DNA from: a virus
DNA length: 42,811 nt
IMG/VR virus record: IMGVR_UViG_3300021185_000725
Span: 1-42,811 of that record
Reading direction: 5' to 3' (one strand)
Part shown: positions 9,412-39,334 of the stretch, piece after piece
Layout: each line of letters starts with the position of its first letter
Numbering within the stretch: position 1 is the stretch's first letter
Notes under the pieces: generated by a model
Seen by the model: the letters and a program-made list of their open reading frames with translations, nothing else
What the model was told of the DNA's origin: nothing
Databases searched by the model: none
Position numbers and translations under genes: made by a program

Positions 9412-12400
9412 TTATAGTATAGTTCCTTTACCTGCTAAGTTCAACATAAATGCTTCTGCATGTGTTGAACTATCTAAGATTGTTGTGCTATCATCATTAA
9501 ATCTTCTATCAGCTGGTGAATCTACATAGTGTAATTCATTTCCTGTGACATCAGTAATGGTTGTGCCTGTTACATGCTTAGTTGCAAATGTTAAATTTAA
9601 TCCTCGTTTTCTAATATAAATTATATTATTTACAGTTTGAACTTGTATCAATTCATTATTTACTAATACTAATTCTGCTGTTGCAAATTTACTTGGGTCT
9701 GTTACTGCTAATATTGTGTCGCTCATATTAAGATCTGCTGACAATGTAGATGTTTTAGCGTCTGCCATTCCAACTACATGTTCGTTAGTATGCATATCAA
9801 TTATGTATGCAAATGTTCTAGACTCGTTTGTATCTGTTGAACCTGATCTATTTGTTTGCACTTTAAATACTGTTGTTGCTTGTGGTCTAATATCAGCATC
9901 AGTTGATCTGTTTATCTCACCATTGTTTGCTAATGTATAATAGTAAGGTTGTAATCCTTCGCCACCTGATACAATTGCATAACCTTCTACACCGTTGGCA
10001 TCAGCATATGTTGTATTACCGTCACCGCCGTTTAAAATAATTGGTTCATTGTAATCAACTGTCACAACAACATCACCCAATGGAATATTCACAAAACTTA
10101 TAGTTTGCTCTACTAAGAAATAATCAGTAAGCAATGTTAGTTCAGTTAATCCATCTTTGATTGATGTAGCTGTCCATTCTGTTAAGTCTGCATCTTCCTT
10201 AGGTATAACATATGTATTTGTTCCATTGTTTGCTATTGTAATATCTTTTGTTAATGAATTTGTTTGGTTTGCATCAATTACAAGTCCATTGAAGTTTGTG
10301 CCTCTAGTATCTGCTTTAACTGTAATTGTTGCTTTTTCTTCTTCTGCAACTGTTAGCATTACATCTTCACGTTTGTTAAATGTTCTACTAGTTTCGCTTA
10401 TCTTAACATGGAAAGGTTTTATATCATTAACATAACCTTCGATTGTAGCTAAACTATCTTTCTTATATTTTTTAACTTCTACTAAGTCACTCTTGACTTC
10501 AAGTCTAACATAAGATGTTTTCATTGCCCATTCAACTTGCTTGGTTCTTGACATTGCATAATCAACCATTCCAAAGAAGAACTTGTTAAATTTATGTGTG
10601 TGTTCATTTACAAATATAACTTCTCTAAGTATTTGAACAATGCCCTTCCACCAGTCAGCAATAGCTTCACTGCTCCAGTTTACACTATCCCATGGTTCCA
10701 TATCCCATGTGTAAGACTTAGCCAAACGTTCTTCAATCCAATGTATTGTTGAATTATTCTTTTTACTTAATACCCAACCGTTGGTTGTATATCTGTAATA
10801 TTCTGTTCTGTCAATATTATCATCATCTATAATTTCAATTCTTGCTGTTTCGTATTCTACAGTATCAAGTGAATTAAGTTCTTCGATGTCAGCAACATCT
10901 TTTGTGTATGTGCTTGCAAAGTTATGATCTAATGAAATAAAGTCTACCCATTCCCATGTGTCATTTGGAATGCCGTTATCTATAATTGACTGGAAGAATT
11001 TAGTTCTGTGATCATTATATACGTTAACTGATAATAATAGTCTGTTTATAATATCAAGTGCATTTTTTCTAGCTAATACTAAATCGTCAAACCATGCTTG
11101 CCTAATTGATCTATCATCACCATATCTTGCGTATTCGTGATTATTGTAATTTGGTAGACGTAAATAATCTTCGTCCATTGCAGCTAAGTTGCTTCTCAAT
11201 CCTGTATACCAATATGTTGGAATAACATCTGTATCTTTGCTTACAAGTATCCACTGAGCATGATTGTTATCTACTTTCTTATTTAACTGTAGAACAACTT
11301 TCTTATTTACAAAATCCCATATGTCTGATATAATAATTGCATCTGTATCTACAACTGAGAACCAATAAATTCCATTTGCACTTGGATCAGTAATAATGTT
11401 TTCTACTTCACCTGTGAGGATATTTTTGTCTGCACTTCCAATTGTTTCTTTTCCACGCACCCAGAAGTAATAAACACTATCGTATTTGCTAGTGCTTGCA
11501 TTCCATTCGTTACGTAATGTATAATAGTATTCGTTTTGATTTTTGATTGCGTCAAATTCAAAGTATGCTGTTCCTGATGCTATGACTCCATACATTTCTT
11601 TAGAGCTGTCAACTGCTTTAGCATAGTCGTCTGGTGCAACTGAACTCTTAGTCCATTCCCAAATTACAACTTCACTATCAATAAATTGTTTGCCCCAATT
11701 AGTTGTTTTATCTTTTAAATCACCTTGGTCATAATCGTAATATCTAACTCTACTTGTATCCCACCAACGTTTACCAACTTCTGCATCGCTCCATGCACTA
11801 TCGTCATCTTCTTCATATTCTTCTTCAGTTGATGTGTTATATATTGCTACGTCATGCACACTTGTTATATCTATTTCAACATCAGCTATGCCTGGAATGA
11901 TTCCACGCATTGGGTCAAATAATTCTAAATCAAGTATAGGTGTGTTAGTTTCATAATCATAAACTGTAATATTATCTAAGTCTGTATTTGTAACTCTAGT
12001 TGACTGACTTCTAGATAATTTTTGAGAATTAGATACTTCAGCCGGTGTTGCTTGTGCTAACTGTCCTGCAAGGTAACTTGCACCATCTGTTGCGTAAGTT
12101 GTTTCAAATACATTTATTGATCTTGTTCTATTACCAATTAAGTTATCAAAGTCTGTGAATATATTAGTAGTAGGTGGCACATTCCATAATGTGCTTTGTA
12201 ATGCTGTATCTCTATTTTCTATAGATTGGAATCTTGTTGAACGTAGTATCATTACTGAACTTGATGATCCACACTTGTCAATATATTGATCAATGTAGAA
12301 TGTTGTAGAGTTTTTAAGTTTTGTAACTTTGTGTATACCATCAATGCTAGGTGTAGTTGTTGTATTCATTAGCATTACATAATCACCTACTTGTAATCCA

Positions 12401-15400
12401 TGATCAATATTTACTGTTACTTCTGCATCGTTACCATCAGCAGTCATTGTTCCTGCACATATACCACAAGGCTCAGCTTGTTGAGTTGGATCATTTACTA
12501 GGTCTGCTGTATACAATCCTTTGTTCTGCACTTGGAAAACGTTCCACCCAAAATGTTTTACTGGAACACCAGCAGTGGATTCAATTTCATAATCAGAATC
12601 ATTTGCAACCCATACGTTAAACAAAGCTGGATCAGTATGACTTACGTTAGTCCATTCGTTAGCAACAAAAGGATTTTCCTGTGCGTCATCAACTACCTGG
12701 TTTATAATCCCATATGAAGTTATACCTGCTTTATCTAAAACATGATCGCCTTCGTCCGGTAATACAAGTGTTGGATTAGTTGATGTAATTTGTAATTTAT
12801 TACCTGAGTTTATTACAGTTACACCCGTAATATTATTTGCAGTAAGTGTGTCTGTAATTATTTGCACTGCTTCAGACAATGGTGTTTTTGCTTGAACTTC
12901 GCTAATACCTGCTTGGTATACTTCAAGCAATCCTAATACTGTTCTTTGAGATCCATCAACAAACATATTAGTTCGTGAACCACTGCTTATTAATCTTAGC
13001 TTGTTAGAATCATTTGATGCAGTAATATGTGATAAGCCAATAGTTGAATTTATTGCACTTACTACTGCGTCTAAGTCCATATCTCGTTCGACTTCATCTA
13101 CTCTAGCTTCAGGTAAATCTTGTTCGCCTGCGTTCTTAAATCCTAAGTATTGGTTTGATGTAGATGCAGGAATAGTTAAGAAACTAGTTTGACTTGTTGC
13201 CCAATATCTAATACGAATTCTATTATCAGCAGTAGTGTCTGCTAGTATCGCCTCATCGGCTCCTTCTGTTGTGCTGATGCCTTGTGCTGCTATTGTATCG
13301 TTTATCTTGGTTAAAATTTCTGTTGTAGTCATTGAGTCTGGCACGTGTGACATCGTAATTTGAATTGCTTCACCGCCTGCAAACGTAGGATTATTAAATG
13401 TAATACTTTGTCCACTTACTGTAAAGTCTGTGTTTGCTGTGCCATCAACTGTAACACTACTAACACTATATGTTGAACTAGTTAGTGCTTGACTAATTGT
13501 ATATGTTTGCTGTGCTGCTACGCCTGTAATATTTTCTACTTCATTATCTGGTGTAGTGTCAAAGTCAACTGTGATACCATTTATTGTAATGCTTTTATTA
13601 GTAACAAAACCATTATTACCATCTAGTGCTGCATTGATTGTTGTGCCAATTAATATTGCTGGCGCTGTTATAACTGTAACTTCTCCAACATTAGTTAGAC
13701 TTACATCTACATTATCAATTAGTAATGTTGTAGCTGATGTTGGTGCTAACACTACTGGATTTGTAACTGATCCTAAAATATTAATACTGTTAGTGCTTGA
13801 TGATGTAGTAGCAAACGGTGGAGTAGTAACTCCATCAATTGTAAATGTTGTGCCAAAATCAAACTCAGGGAAACTGTCGTTACCAATTATTTCAATGTTG
13901 TCTGTTTTTACTGATACTGTTGTGCTATCAACTGCACACTGGAATAATGCTCCTTGGTGTCTTACTAAGTCATTTAATTTGTAACTTCTGTTGTCTGACC
14001 AACTTTCTATTGTAGCATAATCTGATGCTTCGTTATATACGTTGCCAATTTCATTTAATAAGTTTACTTTATATTTTGCTTCAGCATCAAGTAGAGCACC
14101 TGCTGTTAGGTTGCTTATATCAACTTCTACAATTGGTTGTGTAGTATATGCTGGTGCAGTTTTAAATGGATTAACAAATCTTTTATCACCTGGAGCGTAA
14201 ACTAATATGTCATTGTATCCTTCTCCAACTTGTGGTGAGAATTTAATAGCTTGTGGTGATGTTTCAAAGCTATTATTTTCTAATGTAAATTCAACTGCAT
14301 CTAGTCTATCTTTATTACCAAAGTAACTTCTAGACAACATGTATTGCTCGTGAACTTTAATATCAAGTTTATCATTAATATACTTACGTTCAATTTTATC
14401 TAAGCTAGTAGCAGTGCCTCGTTGTTTTATTAATCCTTGATAGTAATTACGTTTAGTGATAGAATCAAATTCTGAACCACTAATAGTAAGTTCGTTATTA
14501 GAATTACCAATTGTAATATCTTCTAGTTTTGTAATTGAAGGATTAAAGTCAATCCCGTCTGTCTTATAGTAATCATCAATTGCTTGCACACTACTATCAA
14601 AGTTTTCAACAATCTTATTGTCAAATACTAAGTAACCAGGTGCACGTTTATTACCGTCCCAACCATCTGTTATAAGTCCTCTAAATGCTATCTTCTCTTG
14701 TATAATATTTTTTACATCATCATGCACAATAACTCCAAATGTTGTTTTATCATTTAGTAGTGCAATATGTTCATATTCAATTACAACAAACCCAGCTGAG
14801 CCAATTACTGTGCTATCTTTTGTTTCTAAAGATAACTCATTGTCTACTCTAGCAACTAATAAGTTGTCTGTTTGAATTGTATTGCCTGTTGCATCAGTTA
14901 TTGTATTTTCTTTATACACACCTGTGTCTAATTCTATTACGTTGCCGTGTAATGGTTTAAACTTTAGATTGCTTCCTAAGTCAAATGTTTTATTAGTCTG
15001 CGGATTACCCAATGCCCATTTAACAAAATCAATAGCAACACTATCTCCACTGTATGGGAATACAAAGCCAACTGATTCTAAGTAAGCATAGTAACCTCTA
15101 ATAAAGGAATAAACATCTTGTATTTTATTAAGAGTTGTGTTATATTCTATAATGCTATGTGTGGGAGCAAACTTTTTATATTTTTTTACTTCTGTTGCTA
15201 ATACTGATACATTTTCATATGATGTTGAGTTTGTATTGTCTGGAGCAAAGAAATTAAATTCTTGCTTGCCATAACCTGCTCCTGTAATTTTCCAACCTGG
15301 ATATAATGCTTCTACAGTAATTGAACTTGCAATTGCAATATTAATTGGAGTGCTCTTATACATTTCCAACGCAAAGTCATTTTCGCTTAATGTATGCTTT

Positions 15401-18400
15401 GTGTCATCATGTGTTTGTGTTCTAAAATCTAGTAGATGTTTGCTTGTAAATCCACGCAACTGTGTTGCTAACTTAGTATCTAGTTTAGTATACAAGTTAT
15501 TTAAATTGTAATCAATGTTGTTACGTAATGTATAATTGTATATAGATTGTGAAATACCGCTACCTACATATTCTACTTCATCTGTTTTAAATGTAACTGT
15601 GGAAGTTGCAAGTTGTGTTGCGTTAAAGTTTGTATAAACTGCTGGCAGTGATGTTAAGTTTCTACCTCTGTTTGATAAACTTCCGCCTACTACATTACGA
15701 TTAGATATTCCTGTTCTGTTGTCAAATGCCAATGTAACGTCTGCATCAATTGAACCATCTTCGCCTACTAACTTAATAAACGTGTCTACTCCAAATTGAT
15801 CAATTGCTGTAATTTCAACATCTGTTACTACTCTGCCATATACTTTTCCAGGTGTTGCAATAGAAGATGATGTGAATATATTCAAGCTGTCCTTGTCTAA
15901 GTAATCTATTTGCTTTTTAGTAACATTTGAACTAGGTGAATAAAATACACCAGTTGCAGTTGTTGGGTTTAATTTAATAATTGCATCGATTAATGCAGCC
16001 TTACCGCTTGCACTTGCTCTCCATTCTGCTTCTAGTCCTGCATAGTCGCCAAATTCAAAACGCTTTGCTCTATCAATCTCTTGTGGAACACCTAACACAT
16101 CTTCACGTGATTCTAATGTGCCGTCTGGTTTAACTGGACATTTGCCAGTTGGTGCATCTCTCCAGTCCCACATATTGTTTGCCCATTGCATATCTTGTAT
16201 GCCAGTTGCTACTTGTCCATCTTGCAGTGCTTTAATTAATGCATCACGCTTTGCATCATCACCACCGTTAGCTGTATCTGTCCAGCTATATTTGTCATAC
16301 CACCATGTTGGTTTAAACGCATAGCCTAGCATATGCCAAGGTGTTAAATGAGGTGTGCTTGTTCCAAATAAAACTTCGTATGCACCCTTCCAGTGACCAG
16401 GAACCTTGTTAGTTCCAAATCTACCACCTGGTGCAGTAGAACTAAAGTTCCATGTGTCAATGTCAGTTAGTTCATAATCAATTTTAATATCACTGCGTTT
16501 GTTCTTTACTTTCCATTGTGTAAATGACTTATACATCATATCATTAATTGTTTCTAATGTATACCATGTTTGTCTTGTTGTGTTTGGAATAAACTTAGAA
16601 GCAAATCCATATTGTAAACTTTTAACACATTCAGTATCTGCATTGATACGATCAGTGATAGTTAACCCTGTATGTGCTCTTCTTTCTAATTCTAATTGAC
16701 ATGCATTTACTACATCAAAGTCTGGACTATTCATATCTAATAAGTCTGCTACAGACTTTAGATTCCATTGAGTTCCATCATGTCCAAATAGTATATTATT
16801 TGTTGTATCCCATTCTGGGGTCATACCAGGTGCTAGTTTAAGTTTTGTTAAACTTGGTGGGACATATGAAGCGTTATCCATTCTATGATGATGGACTATA
16901 ATTTTTGGATGTCCACCAGCAGGTGTAGGTAATGGAGAATAAACAAACTCAAGTAAATTTCCAGCTTGTCTATATTCAATATCTTTAGTTGCTAAACGAG
17001 TAACTACTCTATTAGCACCAGCATTCCATTCTGAAATATATACATAAACATGATCTTGTATATTATCATCACTGTGAATATTATCTTTTAAAGTTATTCT
17101 AGGTAGTCCAGGATAGCCTTTGAAAATAAATTCTTCTAGTCTATTTGTATTTGTATACACCATGTTAGATGTTTTAAATAATTCGCCGCCCTGTCTAGTA
17201 ACTGTAATTGCTTTAATTGTATCATCAACTAACTTACTAATACTTGTGTATGTTTTACTTTCGTATAGTCTTGCTACTTGACTTCTAAATCTATTTCTAA
17301 AATTATCCCAATCTTCGCCTGCTGATCTTAATGCGTCAGTAATGTTTACATTTTCATTTGCATACAAGGCATCATGCACAAGACTTAAATCTTTGTATAT
17401 AAATATCTTACCACCAAAGTAATGTGTTTTGTTTATTGCGTCATAATTATTAACACCAAATACGTCTCCAGTAAATCCAGGAGTAGAAGATATTATGCTT
17501 TGCCAATGATTTATTGTTTCACCCATTGTAAAAGTTTTTAGCACTTCGTTGTTTGGATTATGTTTTAATGTATTAGGAACTGATGAATTAGTAGTTCTAT
17601 TTTTGTTATTGCTGTTTGCATATTTCAAGTCAACAATATCGCCTACCTTTAGTTTTTCTTTTGGTATAACAATCGTATTCGTATTAATTGTATAGTTGTC
17701 AGAACTTAAATATCTACCATTGACTTCTACAGTATGATAGATACTATCATACTTCTCAACTGGTATAAGTGTATAGTTGCCTTTATAAATTACATCAGTG
17801 TTTGTTATAATAATTTTGTTATTATATCCATCAAGCGATAAACTAATATCGTTTCCATTACGTGATATAATTACACCTGCTTGTGGAGTTATTTCAAGAT
17901 CAATGCCATCTACAGTTTTAAATTTAATATTACCAGATTTAAATAAACCATTGAATACTGTTGTTTTGTTTTTATCTACATAAATGTTATTGTGGTCAAC
18001 ATTTGTTTTATCTAAATACACACCGTTGTATAATTCAGTCACTACACATTTATTATTGTGTGCATGTAACATAACATATCTATCTGCTTCCCATGAACTG
18101 CTTCCAACATTAATTGTAAAGTCTGATGTTACACTTTCTACATTGTGTGTTACTAATGTTTCTGCTCCAGCAATTTCTTCGCTTTGTTTATATAAGTCAG
18201 ATAATTTATCTTCTACCTTAAATAGTTTTTGTCCTAGTATCTGTCTATGATAATTTGAATCTTTGTTAAATTGTGATGTAATACTTTGAAACTGTTTTTC
18301 AGTAAACAAATAGTTTTCAAATTCATATTCGCCAATACCATTAATATCTTTATAAGAAAGTGGAATACCTAGTTCTGTATCAACTATACTTGTTCCTATT

Positions 18401-20400
18401 TTATAGTTAAAGATTCTACTACCTTGAAACTTAGCACCTTGTAATTGCTCTATTGCTAAACCATCTATTGTGTAAAGTTTGAACAATGGCATTTGATTAA
18501 TTGTTGTGCGTTGCTGTCCAAGGTTCCATTTTGTTCCATCAAAGAATACATCGCTGTTTGACCAAATCTTATCTTCAGTGTCTGGTAATGCTTCTCTAAC
18601 ATAAGCACAATGATTTTCTACTAAGCCAATATCTTCTGTTAACAATCCGTTTACACCTACGTGCCAAATTTTATCTTGCAATACTCCTTCAGTAAATATA
18701 ATTCTACTTCCACTATATCCATTGTGTGGAGCCTGAACTTCTGTATTGTCTAAATCTAAATAATACGAGCCAGCAGTTTCTGTTACTGCGTAATTGCCCA
18801 CTGGCTTTATTGCAAAATCAATAACACCTGTCCATTGATCGTCAACTAACCCAGCATCATAGTTTGCCCATGCCCAAAGGTTTAGTTTACCATTAAATTC
18901 AATAATAGGTCTTTTTGCGATAAACTTTGTATCAATTAATGCTTCAATATTAATGCCACCATATATAAGTGTATTAATCTTTTTAAGAACATCAATGTCT
19001 GTCCATTTGTTGTTTCTGCTCCATGCAGTTCTAAATGGACTATCTGTTTCCATAACTTGATAATCTTTATCAGTGAAAACTACTGTTGACTTATCATAGT
19101 TTACTGATTCAAATCCTACCAGTCTGTCTTTGTATTTTGCTAATACTGTTTCACTTGTGCCAGGAACAATAAATTGTTGAAACGATCCTAGTGGCACTGG
19201 TTTTGCATCAATAAGCAATGTAAATCCTATATCACCGGTTACGTTATCTATTGTTGTATACCATACTCTGTGATAGTCAAGATCGTCAGATAAAGTCCAT
19301 CTATCTGAGAATGATATTAGTTCACCTTCTATAAATTGTTCTTTGTTTGATTCTTCTGATGGGAAAATAAATCCATCAAATATTGGTAATCTGTTAGCAT
19401 CTGTATTATAAAATGCTTGCATATCAGTAGGTGTTGTTTTATTATGAGTGGTCCATAATACACTTTGTTCATTAGGATCAATGTCTATTATTTTACTTTT
19501 ATCCCATAAGCCACCTACTGTCACTGTTGTTTTTGTTGTGTCTGGATAACGTGTGCTGTTATCAACCCAACTGTAAACTTCTACTAATTTTAAACCTCTA
19601 CCTGTTCCAGTTACCAAGTATGTTCTTTTATGTGCATCTGTGTGCCAGCCATCACCAATAAACTTAATTAACATCTGGTCTGCTAGATCAAATGTATTAT
19701 TGTTGTCTATGATTGTATATGCTAATTGATTAGCAGACATCTCTATTGGATTAACTACAGTTGTAAATCCTGCATTGTTATTGTTGTTTGTATAAATTAC
19801 ATCAGTTGTTCCGCTAGGTTGCCATGTTTTAACATTGTCATCCCATTGATAAGTTGTTGTGTTTACTCCATCATTGAGTGCAAAGTAATCACCATGCGAT
19901 GGGTTTGCAGGATATGTTGAACCCGATGTTACTGATCCAACAGTTGCAGTATCAAGTGTTCTAATACTTTCGTATGTAGGCATTTGATCTACCCATGCAT
20001 AATTTTGATAGTCTATAAACTTATGTATATTAATAGGTGGTCTATAACTGTATGACTTTGTTGCGTATGCTGTATTGTAATTGTATTCGCTAAAGTTTGT
20101 GTTGATTGCATTTGCAATATCATCTATTGTAATTGCATCTACTAATTTTTTATTATCATCAGTAACTACAATTGCTGGATCTAAATTACTATTGTCTAAG
20201 TAAACATCGTCTTTATATCTATTCTTGCCTGATTTATCTCCTATGTAACCTTCTACATTCTTTAGGTTACCTTTTGAGATCATTTGGTCTAGTGTGCTGT
20301 CAAGCCACTTTTTATTTACATCAGTGTTGAAAACTGATGGTAATAAGTTTGACGATTTTATACTTGGAGTATTATAACTTCCTGATTTTTTCTTAGACAT
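9412..20400 (-). CDS. Giant baseplate wedge / structural protein (gp7 position, VrlC-like)
   Basis: 3662 residues, about 11 kb, by far the largest gene. It directly follows gp6, where T4 has wedge protein gp7 (about 1030 residues); marine T4-like phages often have very large proteins here, some annotated VrlC-like. Landmarks: N-terminal LLPSVFNTDVNKKWLDSTLD, PPINIHKFIDYQNYAW near 165, Trp-rich baseplate-like blocks, and a C-terminal IEGYVNDIKPFHVKISE near 3340. Around residues 2150-2560 there are repeated modules such as AINSTIGLSHITASNDSNKL that resemble the Flagellin_IN repeat. No enzyme motif, signal peptide or membrane segment was seen. The start follows an AGGAT ribosome-binding site. 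Homology to T4 gp7 is positional and not proven. Confidence 0.75.
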   Translation of the reverse strand: MSKKKSGSYNTPSIKSSNLLPSVFNTDVNKKWLDSTLDQMISKGNLKNVEGYIGDKSGKNRYKDDVYLDNSNLDPAIVVTDDNKKLVDAITIDDIANAINTNFSEYNYNTAYATKSYSYRPPINIHKFIDYQNYAWVDQMPTYESIRTLDTATVGSVTSGSTYPANPSHGDYFALNDGVNTTTYQWDDNVKTWQPSGTTDVIYTNNNNNAGFTTVVNPIEMSANQLAYTIIDNNNTFDLADQMLIKFIGDGWHTDAHKRTYLVTGTGRGLKLVEVYSWVDNSTRYPDTTKTTVTVGGLWDKSKIIDIDPNEQSVLWTTHNKTTPTDMQAFYNTDANRLPIFDGFIFPSEESNKEQFIEGELISFSDRWTLSDDLDYHRVWYTTIDNVTGDIGFTLLIDAKPVPLGSFQQFIVPGTSETVLAKYKDRLVGFESVNYDKSTVVFTDKDYQVMETDSPFRTAWSRNNKWTDIDVLKKINTLIYGGINIEALIDTKFIAKRPIIEFNGKLNLWAWANYDAGLVDDQWTGVIDFAIKPVGNYAVTETAGSYYLDLDNTEVQAPHNGYSGSRIIFTEGVLQDKIWHVGVNGLLTEDIGLVENHCAYVREALPDTEDKIWSNSDVFFDGTKWNLGQQRTTINQMPLFKLYTIDGLAIEQLQGAKFQGSRIFNYKIGTSIVDTELGIPLSYKDINGIGEYEFENYLFTEKQFQSITSQFNKDSNYHRQILGQKLFKVEDKLSDLYKQSEEIAGAETLVTHNVESVTSDFTINVGSSSWEADRYVMLHAHNNKCVVTELYNGVYLDKTNVDHNNIYVDKNKTTVFNGLFKSGNIKFKTVDGIDLEITPQAGVIISRNGNDISLSLDGYNNKIIITNTDVIYKGNYTLIPVEKYDSIYHTVEVNGRYLSSDNYTINTNTIVIPKEKLKVGDIVDLKYANSNNKNRTTNSSVPNTLKHNPNNEVLKTFTMGETINHWQSIISSTPGFTGDVFGVNNYDAINKTHYFGGKIFIYKDLSLVHDALYANENVNITDALRSAGEDWDNFRNRFRSQVARLYESKTYTSISKLVDDTIKAITVTRQGGELFKTSNMVYTNTNRLEEFIFKGYPGLPRITLKDNIHSDDNIQDHVYVYISEWNAGANRVVTRLATKDIEYRQAGNLLEFVYSPLPTPAGGHPKIIVHHHRMDNASYVPPSLTKLKLAPGMTPEWDTTNNILFGHDGTQWNLKSVADLLDMNSPDFDVVNACQLELERRAHTGLTITDRINADTECVKSLQYGFASKFIPNTTRQTWYTLETINDMMYKSFTQWKVKNKRSDIKIDYELTDIDTWNFSSTAPGGRFGTNKVPGHWKGAYEVLFGTSTPHLTPWHMLGYAFKPTWWYDKYSWTDTANGGDDAKRDALIKALQDGQVATGIQDMQWANNMWDWRDAPTGKCPVKPDGTLESREDVLGVPQEIDRAKRFEFGDYAGLEAEWRASASGKAALIDAIIKLNPTTATGVFYSPSSNVTKKQIDYLDKDSLNIFTSSSIATPGKVYGRVVTDVEITAIDQFGVDTFIKLVGEDGSIDADVTLAFDNRTGISNRNVVGGSLSNRGRNLTSLPAVYTNFNATQLATSTVTFKTDEVEYVGSGISQSIYNYTLRNNIDYNLNNLYTKLDTKLATQLRGFTSKHLLDFRTQTHDDTKHTLSENDFALEMYKSTPINIAIASSITVEALYPGWKITGAGYGKQEFNFFAPDNTNSTSYENVSVLATEVKKYKKFAPTHSIIEYNTTLNKIQDVYSFIRGYYAYLESVGFVFPYSGDSVAIDFVKWALGNPQTNKTFDLGSNLKFKPLHGNVIELDTGVYKENTITDATGNTIQTDNLLVARVDNELSLETKDSTVIGSAGFVVIEYEHIALLNDKTTFGVIVHDDVKNIIQEKIAFRGLITDGWDGNKRAPGYLVFDNKIVENFDSSVQAIDDYYKTDGIDFNPSITKLEDITIGNSNNELTISGSEFDSITKRNYYQGLIKQRGTATSLDKIERKYINDKLDIKVHEQYMLSRSYFGNKDRLDAVEFTLENNSFETSPQAIKFSPQVGEGYNDILVYAPGDKRFVNPFKTAPAYTTQPIVEVDISNLTAGALLDAEAKYKVNLLNEIGNVYNEASDYATIESWSDNRSYKLNDLVRHQGALFQCAVDSTTVSVKTDNIEIIGNDSFPEFDFGTTFTIDGVTTPPFATTSSSTNSINILGSVTNPVVLAPTSATTLLIDNVDVSLTNVGEVTVITAPAILIGTTINAALDGNNGFVTNKSITINGITVDFDTTPDNEVENITGVAAQQTYTISQALTSSTYSVSSVTVDGTANTDFTVSGQSITFNNPTFAGGEAIQITMSHVPDSMTTTEILTKINDTIAAQGISTTEGADEAILADTTADNRIRIRYWATSQTSFLTIPASTSNQYLGFKNAGEQDLPEARVDEVERDMDLDAVVSAINSTIGLSHITASNDSNKLRLISSGSRTNMFVDGSQRTVLGLLEVYQAGISEVQAKTPLSEAVQIITDTLTANNITGVTVINSGNKLQITSTNPTLVLPDEGDHVLDKAGITSYGIINQVVDDAQENPFVANEWTNVSHTDPALFNVWVANDSDYEIESTAGVPVKHFGWNVFQVQNKGLYTADLVNDPTQQAEPCGICAGTMTADGNDAEVTVNIDHGLQVGDYVMLMNTTTTPSIDGIHKVTKLKNSTTFYIDQYIDKCGSSSSVMILRSTRFQSIENRDTALQSTLWNVPPTTNIFTDFDNLIGNRTRSINVFETTYATDGASYLAGQLAQATPAEVSNSQKLSRSQSTRVTNTDLDNITVYDYETNTPILDLELFDPMRGIIPGIADVEIDITSVHDVAIYNTSTEEEYEEDDDSAWSDAEVGKRWWDTSRVRYYDYDQGDLKDKTTNWGKQFIDSEVVIWEWTKSSVAPDDYAKAVDSSKEMYGVIASGTAYFEFDAIKNQNEYYYTLRNEWNASTSKYDSVYYFWVRGKETIGSADKNILTGEVENIITDPSANGIYWFSVVDTDAIIISDIWDFVNKKVVLQLNKKVDNNHAQWILVSKDTDVIPTYWYTGLRSNLAAMDEDYLRLPNYNNHEYARYGDDRSIRQAWFDDLVLARKNALDIINRLLLSVNVYNDHRTKFFQSIIDNGIPNDTWEWVDFISLDHNFASTYTKDVADIEELNSLDTVEYETARIEIIDDDNIDRTEYYRYTTNGWVLSKKNNSTIHWIEERLAKSYTWDMEPWDSVNWSSEAIADWWKGIVQILREVIFVNEHTHKFNKFFFGMVDYAMSRTKQVEWAMKTSYVRLEVKSDLVEVKKYKKDSLATIEGYVNDIKPFHVKISETSRTFNKREDVMLTVAEEEKATITVKADTRGTNFNGLVIDANQTNSLTKDITIANNGTNTYVIPKEDADLTEWTATSIKDGLTELTLLTDYFLVEQTISFVNIPLGDVVVTVDYNEPIILNGGDGNTTYADANGVEGYAIVSGGEGLQPYYYTLANNGEINRSTDADIRPQATTVFKVQTNRSGSTDTNESRTFAYIIDMHTNEHVVGMADAKTSTLSADLNMSDTILAVTDPSKFATAELVLVNNELIQVQTVNNIIYIRKRGLNLTFATKHVTGTTITDVTGNELHYVDSPADRRFNDDSTTILDSSTHAEAFMLNLAGKGTIL

Positions 20401-23929: not shown

Positions 23930-24490
23930 TTATAGAATTGTTACTGTTTCTGCAATGTGTAGTTTTTCTTCTGGCCAATCTAAATAATACTGCCAGGCAG
24001 CATCAGGAATATGCAAATTATGTAGCTTACTTGCGCCATTTATTTGATACCAGCTAGGCCTTACTGGTTCTTTTATTGGTTTGGGATATAGTTTGTCAGC
24101 TTTCTTTACATTACAAGGACCGCATGCTGTAACTGTATTTTCCCATGTTAGTTTGCCACCTTTTGATTTTGGAACAACATGATCTATTGTAAGTTCGTTG
24201 TAGTAAAATAAATTACCACAGTATTGGCAACAGTAATGATCACGCAGATATACATTCTTGCGTGTGTATTTTGCTTTGCTTGGATTTTTATGATATGTGT
24301 TCATCATAATAACACTGGGCAACGGTATGGCTGTAGTTGGCGTATGTAAAAATTTACCTTCGTAATTTTTAACTACTCGAACTTTACTACTCCACATTGC
24401 CTTAATGGCAGTCTGCCAACTTACAGTGCTCAGCGGGTGTAAACTTAAAGGTCTTGCATCTGCGTTTAAAAGTAATACACTAGCATGCAT
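23930..24490 (-). CDS. HNH endonuclease family protein
   Basis: 186 residues. The N-terminal VLLLNADARPLSLHPLSTVS (residues 5-24), WQTAIKAM and a LPSVI segment define a known HNH subfamily found in alphaproteobacteria, cyanobacteria and marine T4-like phages. The nuclease core runs from about 81 to 132: CQYC (88-91), DH (103-104) with VVPKSKGG, WENTVTACGPCN, so the zinc Cys pairs, His104 and Asn118 are present. It probably cuts DNA, though whether it is a homing enzyme, packaging aid or free-standing nuclease is unknown. It sits between the lysozyme-like gene and gp25 with a good ribosome-binding site (AAAGGAAC). It is the only non-structural gene in that stretch, suggesting insertion. Confidence 0.85.
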   Translation of the reverse strand: MHASVLLLNADARPLSLHPLSTVSWQTAIKAMWSSKVRVVKNYEGKFLHTPTTAIPLPSVIMMNTYHKNPSKAKYTRKNVYLRDHYCCQYCGNLFYYNELTIDHVVPKSKGGKLTWENTVTACGPCNVKKADKLYPKPIKEPVRPSWYQINGASKLHNLHIPDAAWQYYLDWPEEKLHIAETVTIL

Positions 24491-28583: not shown

Positions 28584-29233
28584 TACATGAATCCTCCTGA
28601 GTTGCCACCACCTAGTAATCCGCCACGTGCATAATCTTGAATATTGAAATCTTTCCTAACAGTCCTTGGTGACATTTGTATTGATAAGTCGACAGATAAT
28701 AATAGCATAGTTGGAATAGTTCCTGATTCTGTGTCGACGTAGTTAACATCTTCTGGCAATGTATAATTTAAAGCTCTAACAATAACTGGTGTTGACTTTG
28801 CATGTAATGTAGATCCTGCATATGCCCATAAACTTAATATAGGAGGCGGTGTGCCTGCTGTAGTAGGATTGCCCTCACCAAAATCAGATTTGGTGCATGC
28901 TTTTAAAAATTGTATTGCAGCCGCTGTATGTTTTGCTTCTCTTATATCATTTGCTGTAAAATTGGCAGTAATATTTATAGTAGGATTTTGTGTTGATACA
29001 TAATATTGCGGCTGGTATATTGTGTGCGTAATATCATATGTTCCATAATTAGCTTGGTGTCCTACTTGTAATGTAGGAGTATATGGAAATATCAATCCGT
29101 TATCAGCTTTTAATGGTTCTAATACGCCATCTAAGGTAAATGGATTGTTTGGTTTTATTTTTAATGCTACTACATTGTTTGGATTTGTTTTAAAATTGTT
29201 ATCCGAACTTGGTATGCCTGATATTAAACTCAT
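28583..29233 (-). CDS. Tail tube-baseplate junction protein (gp48/gp54-like)
   Basis: 216 residues. Contains NPTINITANFTANDIREAKH near 82-101, then TAAAIQFLKAC and GTPPPILSLWAYAG near 126-139 with VIVRALNYTLPEDVNYVDTE after it. The GTPPP-hydrophobic-Tyr/Trp-Gly pattern is the conserved part of gp48/gp54-type proteins that cap the baseplate and start the tail tube. The C-terminus is Gly-rich (YARGGLLGGGNSGGF). Starts in an ATGA overlap with the nucleotidyltransferase gene and ends overlapping the LysM-like gene. Which of gp48 or gp54 it represents cannot be told, and only one such gene is in this operon. Confidence 0.75.
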   Translation of the reverse strand: MSLISGIPSSDNNFKTNPNNVVALKIKPNNPFTLDGVLEPLKADNGLIFPYTPTLQVGHQANYGTYDITHTIYQPQYYVSTQNPTINITANFTANDIREAKHTAAAIQFLKACTKSDFGEGNPTTAGTPPPILSLWAYAGSTLHAKSTPVIVRALNYTLPEDVNYVDTESGTIPTMLLLSVDLSIQMSPRTVRKDFNIQDYARGGLLGGGNSGGFM

Positions 29234-29838
29234 GTCAATCTCTCCTCAATGAACTTAAATATTTTCTCATCAAACTTTCCAAAGAACTTTGTGAATTCTT
29301 TTTGTTTTGCTTCTGGTGTGGCATTACTTGCCATTGCTGCACGGAAATCACTTGCACTCATTCCACCTTGCATTAGTGGTGCTTCATAATAATATATCAT
29401 TTCGCTTTGAGGCTTTACATCTTTTAGGTTGTCTGGCAGTTTTTGAACATTTGCTGATCCACCCAAGCGTCCTGCATCTTTGGCACCAAACACCAACACA
29501 ATACCTGTTGTGTTGTTGTCTCTGCCCACTGTAGATGGTTCACTTCTGTATGGATTGCTGTTCACAATCTTATCTGCTGGTATGCCAAACATTGTAGACA
29601 TGATACTTTTCTTTTCATCAAATGTAAATGGATCATCACTGTAGTTGCCTGCAGCGTGTGCCTTTGTAGCTTTTTGACTAAATGTTGTAGCGATAAATAC
29701 GTTATCCGCACCAAACTTACCTACTAGATGTTGATATACATCTCGGTGTCCTTGGTGCATAGGTTGGAAACGACCACCGTAAAATACTGCAATGCTACCT
29801 ATATCTTCTCTAATTTGTATAATTTCGTTAATAATCAT
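29230..29838 (-). CDS. Cytidylyltransferase-like nucleotidyltransferase
   Basis: 202 residues. GGRFQPMHQGH (21-31) is the HxGH nucleotide-binding motif of the cytidylyltransferase/NMN adenylyltransferase superfamily. SASDFRAAM (161-169) occupies the place of the C-terminal ISSTxIR motif that binds the triphosphate. These enzymes couple a nucleoside monophosphate to a phosphorylated partner and release diphosphate; the substrate cannot be predicted. Such genes are common in marine T4-like phages. It is the first gene of the tail operon and overlaps the tube-junction gene by 4 bases, so it is probably made late. The ATG follows GGAGA closely. Confidence 0.8.
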   Translation of the reverse strand: MIINEIIQIREDIGSIAVFYGGRFQPMHQGHRDVYQHLVGKFGADNVFIATTFSQKATKAHAAGNYSDDPFTFDEKKSIMSTMFGIPADKIVNSNPYRSEPSTVGRDNNTTGIVLVFGAKDAGRLGGSANVQKLPDNLKDVKPQSEMIYYYEAPLMQGGMSASDFRAAMASNATPEAKQKEFTKFFGKFDEKIFKFIEERLT

Positions 29839-34823: not shown

Positions 34824-35267
34824 ATGAGTAAATTTGAACAATTCAAAAAAGACTTTACTGACTGGATGATTACCAAGTTAGAAGTAAACAAAGATGACGG
34901 GTATCCTACTTGTCCTTATGCAAAAACTGCCAGAGTTCAAGATAAACTACAGTTCATAGATTGCAGTGATTCTAATCCTGATGCTATGCTTGAGTTTGAT
35001 CCTAGAGTAAAAATGGTAGGTGTGTGTTATTTTGGAGATGATGTTGATTTAGATACAATCAACTTAGATCAAATGAAAGAACTTAATCCTGATCTAATGT
35101 ATTTACAAAGCACTAAAACATCTGGTCACTTTGTTCAAAATATATCTAACGTAATTCTAATTCAGATACGTTCTGAATTACTTAGGCGCCGTGCTAGTTT
35201 ACACAAATCATCTTATTATGACAGTTGGCCTGCAGAGTATTATAAAGAAATAATGCTGGATCAATAA
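34824..35267 (+). CDS. Hypothetical protein with CPYAKTAR motif
   Basis: 147 residues, not recognised. The N-terminal 20 residues are helical. PTCPYAKTARVQDKLQFIDC follows (about 29-48), with two Cys 17 residues apart, then an acidic middle (GDDVDLDTINLDQMKELNPD) and a basic helix LIQIRSELLRRRASLHKSSY. The CPYAKxA pattern hints at a redox or metal site but is not enough for a family. Expected to be late-expressed from the promoter at 34672. The Shine-Dalgarno is poor (GGAT, 12 bases upstream). The gene ends exactly where the convergent gp51-like gene ends, with no space for a terminator. Confidence 0.65.
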   Translation: MSKFEQFKKDFTDWMITKLEVNKDDGYPTCPYAKTARVQDKLQFIDCSDSNPDAMLEFDPRVKMVGVCYFGDDVDLDTINLDQMKELNPDLMYLQSTKTSGHFVQNISNVILIQIRSELLRRRASLHKSSYYDSWPAEYYKEIMLDQ

Positions 35268-35555
35268 CTAGCGTCTACCGCCTTTGGCCTGAGCCGCTTT
35301 CAACTGTTGATTCTGATCTTCTGTATGTGTATTGTATCTCTCAACAAACATTGATAAGGCGTCAACAGGCATTTCCATAATATCTTTATATGTTAGCAAG
35401 CCTCCCGATCTGATCATTAAATCTATATAGCTGGCTTCTTGTGCCTTTAGTTGATTGTTATAACTTTCAACAAGTTTAACAATTTCTTCGGGTTGTCGAG
35501 ATGCTATCAACCCGCGAAAAAATTTGCAATATCCAAATCTATGTTGGTATCCCAT
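35268..35555 (-). CDS. 51: gp51-like baseplate hub assembly protein, probably made by -1 frameshift from gp26
   Basis: 95 codons from ATG 35555, in the -1 frame relative to gp26 and overlapping its last 49 bases. The part beyond the overlap (ASRQPEEIVKLVESYNNQLK, MIRSGGLLTYKDIMEMPVDA, ALSMFVERYN) is helical and charged, the right size and place for T4 gp51, a hub assembly factor. The ATG has no good ribosome-binding site. Instead, gp26 has a slippery TTTTTTC at 35516-35522 just before its stop and a 7-bp hairpin beyond. The natural product may be a gp26-gp51 fusion of about 355 residues, like the tail-assembly chaperone pairs of other phages. Confidence 0.65.
   Translation of the reverse strand: MGYQHRFGYCKFFRGLIASRQPEEIVKLVESYNNQLKAQEASYIDLMIRSGGLLTYKDIMEMPVDALSMFVERYNTHTEDQNQQLKAAQAKGGRR
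35489..35527 (-). promoter_or_regulatory. Programmed -1 ribosomal frameshift signal in gp26
   Basis: Minus strand, gp26 frame: GCA AAT TTT TTC GCG GGT TGA. It contains A-AAT-TTT and T-TTT-TTC, both X-XXY-YYZ heptamers, two codons before the stop. A perfect 7-bp hairpin, CGGGTTG (35514-35508) with CAACCCG (35495-35489), follows after 1 or 4 bases depending on the heptamer used. The -1 frame leads into the gp51-like ORF. Confidence 0.7.
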
Positions 35556-36412: not shown

Positions 36413-39334
36413 ATGAACCAAGACGTTATTCAGATGCTAATGAACCAGGTTTACTCGCAATACCCGTGGGCAGGCGAGGAATCTGCACAAGAATTAGCCA
36501 AGTTATCTAGATCAAGTAGTATAAAAACTACTGCATTAGCTGTGGCCATTGCTAGACTAAACGACCAATCGGATGCTGACCAATTGATTGAGAATATAAA
36601 AGACGTAGAAAAATCTTTAAATGACGGATTATCAGACGGTAGACGAAGACTCAAAACTGCAGATCAACACACCAGAGCCATGGGTAGAGCAACAATGAAA
36701 CCAATGCAAACTGGATTAGAGTCTATGATAGAACTTGCAGGCGCAGGTGCAAAAGCAATGGATGCCGCTGCTGAAGGAGTAGCAGGCATGGGTGGTAAAG
36801 TAGGCAAAGTTGCAAAAGGTTTCAGTTGGGCAACAGGTGGAGCAGTAGCACTTACAGGTGTTGGTGCCGTGGTTGCTAAAGTAATAGCTCAACAAGAAAA
36901 AGAATTAAGAGCAATGATTGATATGGGTCTAGTATTAGGCAACACTGCTGATTATACACACATGCGTAAAAATGCAGTTGATACTGGTATGTCTTTACAG
37001 GATTATGCAGGCATGGTGCAAAACCATGCAGAAGTTATAGTAGGACTAGGCAGCACTATGGTAGAAGGCCAAGGCTTGATGCATAATTTTTTAACTGATA
37101 AAGAAAGAATTAAACATGTTAAAAACTTTGGTTATAGTCCAAAAATATTATCGGCGTTATTAACAGAAGAAACAGAACAGTTATATAAACTTAATCAAGT
37201 AAATGAATTAAACTCAACTGGACAAAATAGAGTAATTGAAAGTTTCCAAATGGCAAACAACATGGGTATATATCTAGCAGATACATTAGGTGTGCAACGT
37301 AGTGCAATGATGGAAGCAAGAAAAATGGCTAGAGAAAATGACGACTTTGTATTAGCAATGAATCAAAATACAACATTCCTAGATCAAAAGTATGGCAAAG
37401 GAACTGCTAGACGAAATCAAGAAACAGCAGACTTTCTCGCAATGATGGGTAGTGCAACACTAGGTGATGAAATAACAGCACAACTTATGGATGTGTTTAT
37501 AGGAACTACATCAGATATTCAAATGGACGATTCAGCAGTTAACAATATGATGAACGATCAATTAACAGAAACTTTACAAATGCTAGGACCTGGAACGTTT
37601 GGAGCCTTTACAAAATTTATTGAAGATGGAGTTACTGGAGAATTATCAAGTCCTGCTGAACGAACAGTTAGATTCCAAGAGCTAATAAGATTAATTAAAA
37701 ATTCACCTACTTTGATTGGTGTAGATCCAAATCATCAAGAAGTCAATAAGTTGATAGCATCAATGCAGATTTTACCAGAAGCATTTCTTAGTGGAACAGA
37801 AGCAGAAATTGAAGCAAAAATAGCCTCCGCCCAAGAAGGCATAGACGGTGCTGATGATTCAATTGAAATTGTTGGTGGAATGAGTAAAGCATTTCTAAAA
37901 GCTCAACATGCCTTTACACCTGGATTTGAAACAATGGGAACAGTGATGGGAGTATTAGAAAGTTCAATAGGAACATTTGCTGACTTCTGGAGAGATATGT
38001 TTGGATTAGACAGAACAGCAGAAGCAAGTATGGAATTAGCTTTACAAGAAGATCAAATTGCAGCTAAAGGTGAAAATCAAGTCTTTAGCAGTATGGGAAT
38101 GTCAGTAAGTGGCAATGGAACACGTCCAATTGATGTAACTACAATTGTAGGATATAATGAAGAAAGCCAAAATGCAGCATATCGAGAAATGAGAACTAAT
38201 GCAATGGAACAAATGGGAACATTAATGGCAACATTCCAAGAAGACCAAACAAAACAAATAGATCTAATGTTTGATATTCAGCGAGTAGGGTTAAAAGATT
38301 TTATTGATGATGTTGAAAAATTTACGTCAGCAATAGAAACAGCAAAGACACGTGGAGAAGATTACGGACCACTAGAATTACAATTATTGGACGCACAAAG
38401 AAAACTAGATGAAGCAAATGCAATTGCAGGTCCTATGCAAGAAGAAATGGCTTTATTAAGAGAAAGAATGTCAAACACACAAGACTATATGCTGAGATTA
38501 AGATCAGTTGTAGGCAATTCTGCAAGACCGCGTCTGCGTAATAACATGAGTGAGTTTGAACATGGTTCATCATTACAAGGTATAGTTTTAGCACAATTAG
38601 AAGAACAGGGTATTACAGATAAACGAGCTCAGGCTAACATATTGGGAATGATACAAGGTGAATCAGCTTTCCAACTGGTATCCGAGCAATCATATGCTAA
38701 CACTTCAAATGACAGAATTAGAGCAAAGATGGGTAGACGTGTTTCTGGATTAAATGAAGATCAACTTACTCAGTTAAAAAAGGATCCAAAAGCATTTTTT
38801 GATTATGTGTATTCAGATATTGGTGGATACCAATACAGAGGCAGAGGCTTTATACAATTAACAGGTGTAGAAAATTATAAACTTGTTGGAGAAATGATTG
38901 GTCACGATTTAGTAGGTAATCCAGACTTAATGTTGAATCCTGAAATTGCTGCGGCAGCAAGTGCGGCCTATTTTAATTTACCTTGGTGGCAACAATATAA
39001 AAGTAATTTAGGAAACATGGACACAGTGTATAGAGTTGTATTTGGAGCAACTGCATCTAGTTCGGGTCGTTTAGGTGATTTAGCAACACGAACAGGTTAT
39101 GCAAATCAATTTATGACAGCAATGAACACAGGTGAATTAACAGCAGCAAATCAAGTAACTCCAGAAATACGAACAATACAAAACGAAATTAAACAAATAA
39201 CAGATATAACAGATAACGATGTTCCATTGACACAAACCCAAGAAGGTTTGTTAGCAGAGCTTGAACGCCGGTTAGCAGAAGAAATGATAAAATTACAATT
39301 AGAAATGAATGGAGACCCAGCAAATGGCAGATAA
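36413..39334 (+). CDS. Tape-measure-like tail protein with C-terminal GH19 muramidase domain
   Basis: 973 residues. The N-terminal half is Ala/Gly/Met-rich and helical with a hydrophobic segment near 137-160 (WATGGAVALTGVGAVVAKVI), as in tape measure proteins that fill the tail tube. Residues about 718-890 are a GH19 chitinase/muramidase-like domain: ILGMIQGESAF with candidate catalytic Glu near 750, GGYQYRGRGFIQLTG near 803-817, NPDLMLNPEIAAAASAAYF near 843. This domain would cut peptidoglycan during DNA entry. Ribosome-binding site AGGA before the ATG. It resembles the next gene in the segment IDMGLVLGNT...GLGSTM. It probably replaces T4 gp29 functionally; that is inference. Confidence 0.75.
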   Translation: MNQDVIQMLMNQVYSQYPWAGEESAQELAKLSRSSSIKTTALAVAIARLNDQSDADQLIENIKDVEKSLNDGLSDGRRRLKTADQHTRAMGRATMKPMQTGLESMIELAGAGAKAMDAAAEGVAGMGGKVGKVAKGFSWATGGAVALTGVGAVVAKVIAQQEKELRAMIDMGLVLGNTADYTHMRKNAVDTGMSLQDYAGMVQNHAEVIVGLGSTMVEGQGLMHNFLTDKERIKHVKNFGYSPKILSALLTEETEQLYKLNQVNELNSTGQNRVIESFQMANNMGIYLADTLGVQRSAMMEARKMARENDDFVLAMNQNTTFLDQKYGKGTARRNQETADFLAMMGSATLGDEITAQLMDVFIGTTSDIQMDDSAVNNMMNDQLTETLQMLGPGTFGAFTKFIEDGVTGELSSPAERTVRFQELIRLIKNSPTLIGVDPNHQEVNKLIASMQILPEAFLSGTEAEIEAKIASAQEGIDGADDSIEIVGGMSKAFLKAQHAFTPGFETMGTVMGVLESSIGTFADFWRDMFGLDRTAEASMELALQEDQIAAKGENQVFSSMGMSVSGNGTRPIDVTTIVGYNEESQNAAYREMRTNAMEQMGTLMATFQEDQTKQIDLMFDIQRVGLKDFIDDVEKFTSAIETAKTRGEDYGPLELQLLDAQRKLDEANAIAGPMQEEMALLRERMSNTQDYMLRLRSVVGNSARPRLRNNMSEFEHGSSLQGIVLAQLEEQGITDKRAQANILGMIQGESAFQLVSEQSYANTSNDRIRAKMGRRVSGLNEDQLTQLKKDPKAFFDYVYSDIGGYQYRGRGFIQLTGVENYKLVGEMIGHDLVGNPDLMLNPEIAAAASAAYFNLPWWQQYKSNLGNMDTVYRVVFGATASSSGRLGDLATRTGYANQFMTAMNTGELTAANQVTPEIRTIQNEIKQITDITDNDVPLTQTQEGLLAELERRLAEEMIKLQLEMNGDPANGR

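Follow-up and report, generated by a model that had tools for sequence, protein, structure and literature searches.

Comparative evidence for a probable programmed -1 frameshift yielding two tail-assembly chaperone forms from one gene in an uncultured marine T4-related phage

The slippery sequence of phage lambda is G_GGA_AAG, and T4-like phages reportedly possess identifiable tail-assembly chaperone genes, to judge from the title of Vladimirov et al. 2022 and from the papers citing it. In lambda (G/GT) and P2 (E/E+E'), a short protein is accompanied by a minor -1 fusion that carries a C-terminal domain (Xu et al. 2004; PMC5009743), while T4 is named as an exception to frameshifting in tail chaperones (PMC5009743). 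T4 gp51 has been described as essential for assembly and missing from the virion, with its function unknown (PMC3004832). Poly-T -1 frameshift signals in the TAC-N genes of T4-like phages are credited to Vladimirov et al. 2022 in PMC12846349, and the same work is also cited in PMC10885494. Judged by its title and the citation in PMC12846349, that system shares both its gene family and its type of signal with the locus described here; much of the idea is thus apparently in print, and what the present analysis adds are new lineages, candidate stimulators and annotation fixes.

The locus lies on the minus strand of a 42,811-nucleotide viral stretch, referred to as the window. Going by this sequence and those of its relatives, we consider it highly probable (about 0.92) that one gene of this uncultured marine T4-related phage gives rise to two forms of a tail-assembly chaperone by programmed -1 frameshifting. 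The zero-frame product of the gp26-like gene (36337-35507), the putative short form TAC-N (276 aa, 31.0 kDa), matches PF12322 (E=6.7e-20, 72.2 bits against a cut-off of 24.5) and phrog_150 (E=2.4e-22). Its gene ends in GCA-AAT-TTT-TTC-GCG-GGT-TGA, with the TGA stop at 35509-35507 and an in-frame TAG directly after it (35506-35504). Two tandem heptamers, A_AAT_TTT (35525-35519) and T_TTT_TTC (35522-35516), are both in phase, 3 and 2 codons 5' of the TGA, and the -1 frame is free of stops from just 5' of the slip site to a TAG at 35268, leaving 78 codons open beyond the zero-frame stop. The tandem heptamers, the stop and the open -1 frame had been pointed out in the sequence-only reading and are indeed in place. 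Slippage at either heptamer would yield the same fusion (IANFF-RGLIASRQ, 356 aa, 40.2 kDa), in which the extension TAC-C contributes 84 aa from the slip site (FFRGLIASRQ...GGRR; 35522-35268, minus strand) and the predicted junction reads ...DLDIANFF followed by RGLIASRQPEEIVK...; the predicted tryptic peptides are AQCVECENEWDTNIDLDIANFFR for the fusion junction and AQCVECENEWDTNIDLDIANFFAG for the short form. In-phase X_XXY_YYZ heptamers are not rare by themselves (50 in 13,281 codons); a heptamer within the last 12 codons combined with an open -1 frame is found at one of the 27 gene ends in the window, that of the gp26-like gene. The -1 extension and an opposite-strand ORF (34824-35267) abut at 35267/35268, with no intergenic space.

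As a sequence architecture, a short and a C-terminally extended form encoded by one gene are present here, which by analogy resembles the lambda and P2 pairs. The likeness extends to a slip site late in the first gene and to an adjoining candidate tape-measure gene (36413-39334, plus strand), the 973-aa product of which matches phrog_181 (E=3.9e-23), carries a C-terminal chitinase/endolysin-like domain (PF00182, E=1.6e-7) and weakly matches a tape-measure-like protein of RaK2 (E=0.01). The slippery sequence, however, differs from that of lambda, and the chaperone gene and the tape-measure candidate point away from each other instead of lying in one operon with the chaperone gene upstream; this divergent arrangement recurs in most jumbo-phage relatives. 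Elsewhere in the window, a 3662-aa ORF (9412-20400, minus strand) adjoins baseplate-like genes and shows a weak, below-cut-off match to CBM_5_12, and motifs recognized by eye suggest an HNH endonuclease and a nucleotidyltransferase-like gene among the tail and baseplate genes (23930-24490 and 29230-29838, both minus strand).

The case for frameshifting is carried mainly by conservation. Within IMG/VR, 41 members of the window's clade were collected (L114-L154; 56-90% identity), corresponding, with the window included, to 24 distinct DNA sequences that span 56-100% protein identity, several of them closely related to each other. GCA AAT TTT TTC, and with it both heptamers, is unchanged in 24/24, while the third base varies at other Ala, Asp and Thr codons nearby; GCA itself is fixed in all 24, even though all four GCN codons encode Ala and a different Ala codon of the gene does vary. 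The tandem stops TGATAG are retained in 23/24, and in the -1 frame the Pro codon is always CCC and the Gly codon always GGG. The comparison of related phages that the sequence-only reading had proposed therefore shows slippery bases conserved beyond the protein motif, and neither a gp51 gene set apart by a gap and equipped with a strong ribosome-binding site of its own nor a loss of the slippery bases, either of which was held to speak against the idea, was found in the clade.

Farther afield, tblastn with the gp26-like protein mainly retrieved jumbo-phage records (63 records), the best cultured relatives being Phosso, PA5oct and RaK2 (29-34% identity). All 12 jumbo phages examined, including Phosso, Atu_ph07, PA5oct, RaK2 and CBB, carry T_TTT_TTC (T_TTT_TTT in XacN1) ahead of the stop in that same phase, with -1 extensions of 72-81 aa and a -1 stop 0-12 codons 5' of the slip site. 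The same heptamer occurs in 80/80 cyanophage-like loci (43 distinct) as well as in Aeh1, Vibrio K571 and V07, and OLIVR5/IC12, with T_TTT_TTT or T_TTT_TTG in pf16 and RL38J1. Conservation of A_AAT_TTT, by comparison, was observed in the window's clade alone, and this heptamer is not maintained in the jumbo-phage and cyanophage relatives. A chance origin of the signal is excluded by its conservation (24/24 in the clade, 80/80 cyanophage-like loci, 12/12 jumbo phages) together with codon nulls, of which the codon-usage null for the pattern across 17 lineages (about 6e-11) assumes independence and is accordingly overstated. A sequencing frameshift error was likewise rejected, as isolate genomes and numerous independently assembled sequences share the arrangement. 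No heptamer was found in Ackermannviridae, K469 and Cygsa01, although the two-part arrangement is kept, and this clade probably expresses the second part by other means; these loci correspond to L106, L112, L107 and L024, and the Mutine junction among them has no ATG.

Downstream of the heptamers, the window can form a perfect hairpin of 7 bp (35514-35508 with 35495-35489; 12-nt loop) with a predicted energy of about -9.7 kcal/mol over a 35-nt stretch. The sequence-only reading had described this 7-bp hairpin correctly for the window, but only 6 bp are conserved, as the outermost pair (35514-35489) is not kept in the clade. The clade stem GGGYUG/CARCCC (in the window, GGGTTG at 35513-35508 and CAACCC at 35495-35490, enclosing the 12-nt loop 35507-35496) is paired in 100% of cells across 23 distinct rows, with a single covarying pair (UA in 13, CG in 7 and UG in 3 sequences), whereas pairing falls to 19-57% in a control with a slid partner. 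RNAalifold recovered the same stem unprompted, and Rfam returned no match. Since the conserved stem comprises 6 bp only, the spacers amount to 2 nt from T_TTT_TTC, the more widely conserved heptamer, and 5 nt from A_AAT_TTT; the spacer of 1 or 4 bases that had been called unusual is thereby corrected, and 5 nt falls in the normal range. This stem is the candidate stimulator of the clade, and on its spacing A_AAU_UUU would fit best as the working site.

Other lineages appear to be equipped differently. All 40 distinct cyanophage-type sequences carry a strong Shine-Dalgarno (SD)-like element 7-9 nt 5' of the slip site (mean -9.2 kcal/mol against a background of -2.5). It cannot serve to start the second ORF because it lies about 24 nt from the ATG of the annotated small ORF, which is too far, and an SD-like element at such an upstream spacing occupies the classical position of a frameshift stimulator. 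A near-universal GGAGGG precedes TTTTTTC in the cyanophage-like gp26 genes (L022, L026-L105). A weaker SD-like element is found at six other T4-like sites, and none was detected upstream of the slip site in the jumbo or window clades. Stems 3' of the slip site, at 5-7 nt, stand out in Atu_ph07 (z = -6.7) and Phosso (z = -2.5), while that of Vibrio 2.275.O (z = -1.3) is not significant alone; no significant 3' folding signal was obtained for the RaK2/CBB/SE_PL group. The nested stem of Atu_ph07 (L009, 2329-2400), directly 3' of the slip site, is very stable.

The -1 extension is itself under purifying selection as judged from the aligned sequences, with a pN/pS of 0.42 and no stops in any row, where the other frames show ratios above 1 together with 168-171 stops. 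Its predicted structure is helical (pLDDT 87.5). It yielded no Pfam match above cut-off and no informative PHROG match, tblastn of the window extension against phage records returned nothing, and fold searches gave weak matches only. In several relatives the extension has been overlooked: it is unannotated in RaK2 (L010, 2349-2540) and PA5oct (L007, 2355-2561), and a short late-starting ORF stands for it in Atu_ph07 (L009, 2328-2550), CBB, SE_PL and GAP32, so that the fusion is missing from public records.

How the extension is reached could also be explained by termination and reinitiation, in which ribosomes would stop at the TGA and restart in the -1 frame, either at a YTG overlapping the stop or at an ATG, to make a separate small protein. 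Such an ATG is present at 35555-35553 in the window, as the sequence-only reading had noted; ATGs also overlap the stop in RL38J1, Cygsa01 and Coodle, and in cyanophages one follows 2-3 nt after the gp26 stop. Yet no start is conserved in the window's clade, where ATG is found in 4/21 relatives and no ATG, GTG or TTG of any kind lies between the -1 stop and the slip site in 9/21, so that the ATG at 35555, although real, appears incidental. The YTG is CTG in 7 of the 24 distinct clade sequences, and reinitiation leaves the invariant GCAAATTTTTTC, the stem and the cyanophage SD-like element, distant as it is from the ATG, unexplained. We therefore regard reinitiation as quite improbable.

Slippage of RNA polymerase, which would insert an extra base into some mRNAs at the T6 run and so lead to the same fusion, appears less probable still. 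A run of six T is short for efficient transcriptional slippage in bacteria. The idea draws on the homopolymer of 6-7 T kept in almost all relatives and on the ability of a 3' hairpin to promote polymerase slippage (PMC5009743), but does not account for the run always standing in the ribosomal phase T_TTT_TTC, for the fixation of A_AAT_TTT in the clade or for the cyanophage SD-like element at ribosomal spacing. That the conservation merely reflects an Asn/Ser-Phe-Phe protein motif and overlapping genes, with no recoding at all, is the least credible of these explanations. F273 and F274 are invariant throughout the family, T4 gp26 included (EFF); the nucleotides, however, are constrained further, as in all lineages the first Phe is encoded by TTT and preceded by a codon with T in its third position, the clade always uses GCA for Ala and CCC for Pro, T_TTT_TTY occurs at just 2 of the 26 other Phe-Phe pairs in the window, and in many relatives the extension has no start of its own.

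Programmed ribosomal frameshifting, strongly supported by the comparative evidence as the link between the gp26-like protein and the downstream frame, would then operate as follows. Most ribosomes would reach the TGA and release the 276-aa TAC-N, while a minority, paused at the 6-bp hairpin, would shift one base backwards on AAAUUUUUUC and go on reading in the -1 frame, giving the 356-aa fusion TAC-NC. If the parallel with lambda gpG/gpGT holds, the tape-measure protein would be coated by TAC-N, and TAC-NC would use its additional helical domain to recruit tail-tube subunits, with neither form expected to stay in the virion. The slippage itself, its efficiency, the heptamer used and the chaperone function are what we infer from these comparisons; the proposed equivalence to the short and long forms of a tail-assembly chaperone holds by homology and position.

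The homology leads back to T4, where gp26 and gp51 both belong to PF12322 (8.8e-64 and 3.9e-52), the family of the window protein. gp51, and not gp26, reaches the end of phrog_150 and continues into phrog_634, which is also matched by the cyanophage extensions (7.9e-27). Directly compared with T4 gp51, the window extension gives a non-significant HH probability of 0.6%; a chain of intermediate families connects them (window to jumbo-phage extensions 97%, jumbo to other T4-like 74%, other T4-like to cyanophage 99%, cyanophage to the C-terminus of T4 gp51 90%), and only by this route is its counterpart reached, namely the last ~50 residues of gp51. As the first ~200 residues of T4 gp51 form a paralogue of gp26, the counterpart of gp51 is the frameshift product in full, and the earlier label "gp51-like" for the extension fits that C-terminal stretch only. 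The AlphaFold model of the gp26-like protein (pLDDT 81.8) matches T4-type baseplate hub proteins in BFVD; alignment with the HK97 tail-assembly chaperone 2ob9 covers 100/107 residues at a Z of 6.3, a suggestive match that is tied with unrelated helical ones. Foldseek with this model against the PDB gave no significant match, and the gp26 profile retrieved nothing from the PDB sequences.

In a tree of the gp26-like domain, T4-type gp26 and gp51 fall into one clade (99/98), whose sister group is the frameshifting Aeh1/K571/V07; phages devoid of the heptamer form one clade (99/98) beside pf16. T4 shares with the window the gp26-like domain and, in gp51, a tail related to the extension through intermediates. 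In contrast to the window, it makes the two forms from divergently transcribed genes without a frameshift, and gp26 and gp51 are divergent in T4 and three relatives. T4 thus seems to have swapped the frameshift for gene duplication, since both proteins belong to PF12322 and gp51 resembles gp26 plus the extension; replacement in one lineage seems the simplest reading of the sequences. We lean slightly towards a broader scenario in which the frameshift was kept across T4-related phages while its stimulators were exchanged, the site moved one codon 5' to A_AAU_UUU in the window's clade, and T4 lost the frameshift through duplication, leaving gp51 as a frozen long form.

Frameshifted tail chaperones are a known kind of system, to which, as is well supported, the window's clade adds a signal architecture specific to it. 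The tandem heptamers with a stem 5 nt past A_AAU_UUU are possibly undescribed so far, as is possibly the use of different stimulators in different lineages (an upstream SD-like element or a downstream stem). At the level of annotation, the analysis corrects records that trim the extension to a late ATG and label it hypothetical. For the family as a whole, the frameshift signal is kept in most T4-related lineages sampled, jumbo phages included, and the data support T4 gp26 and gp51 as duplicated short and long forms.
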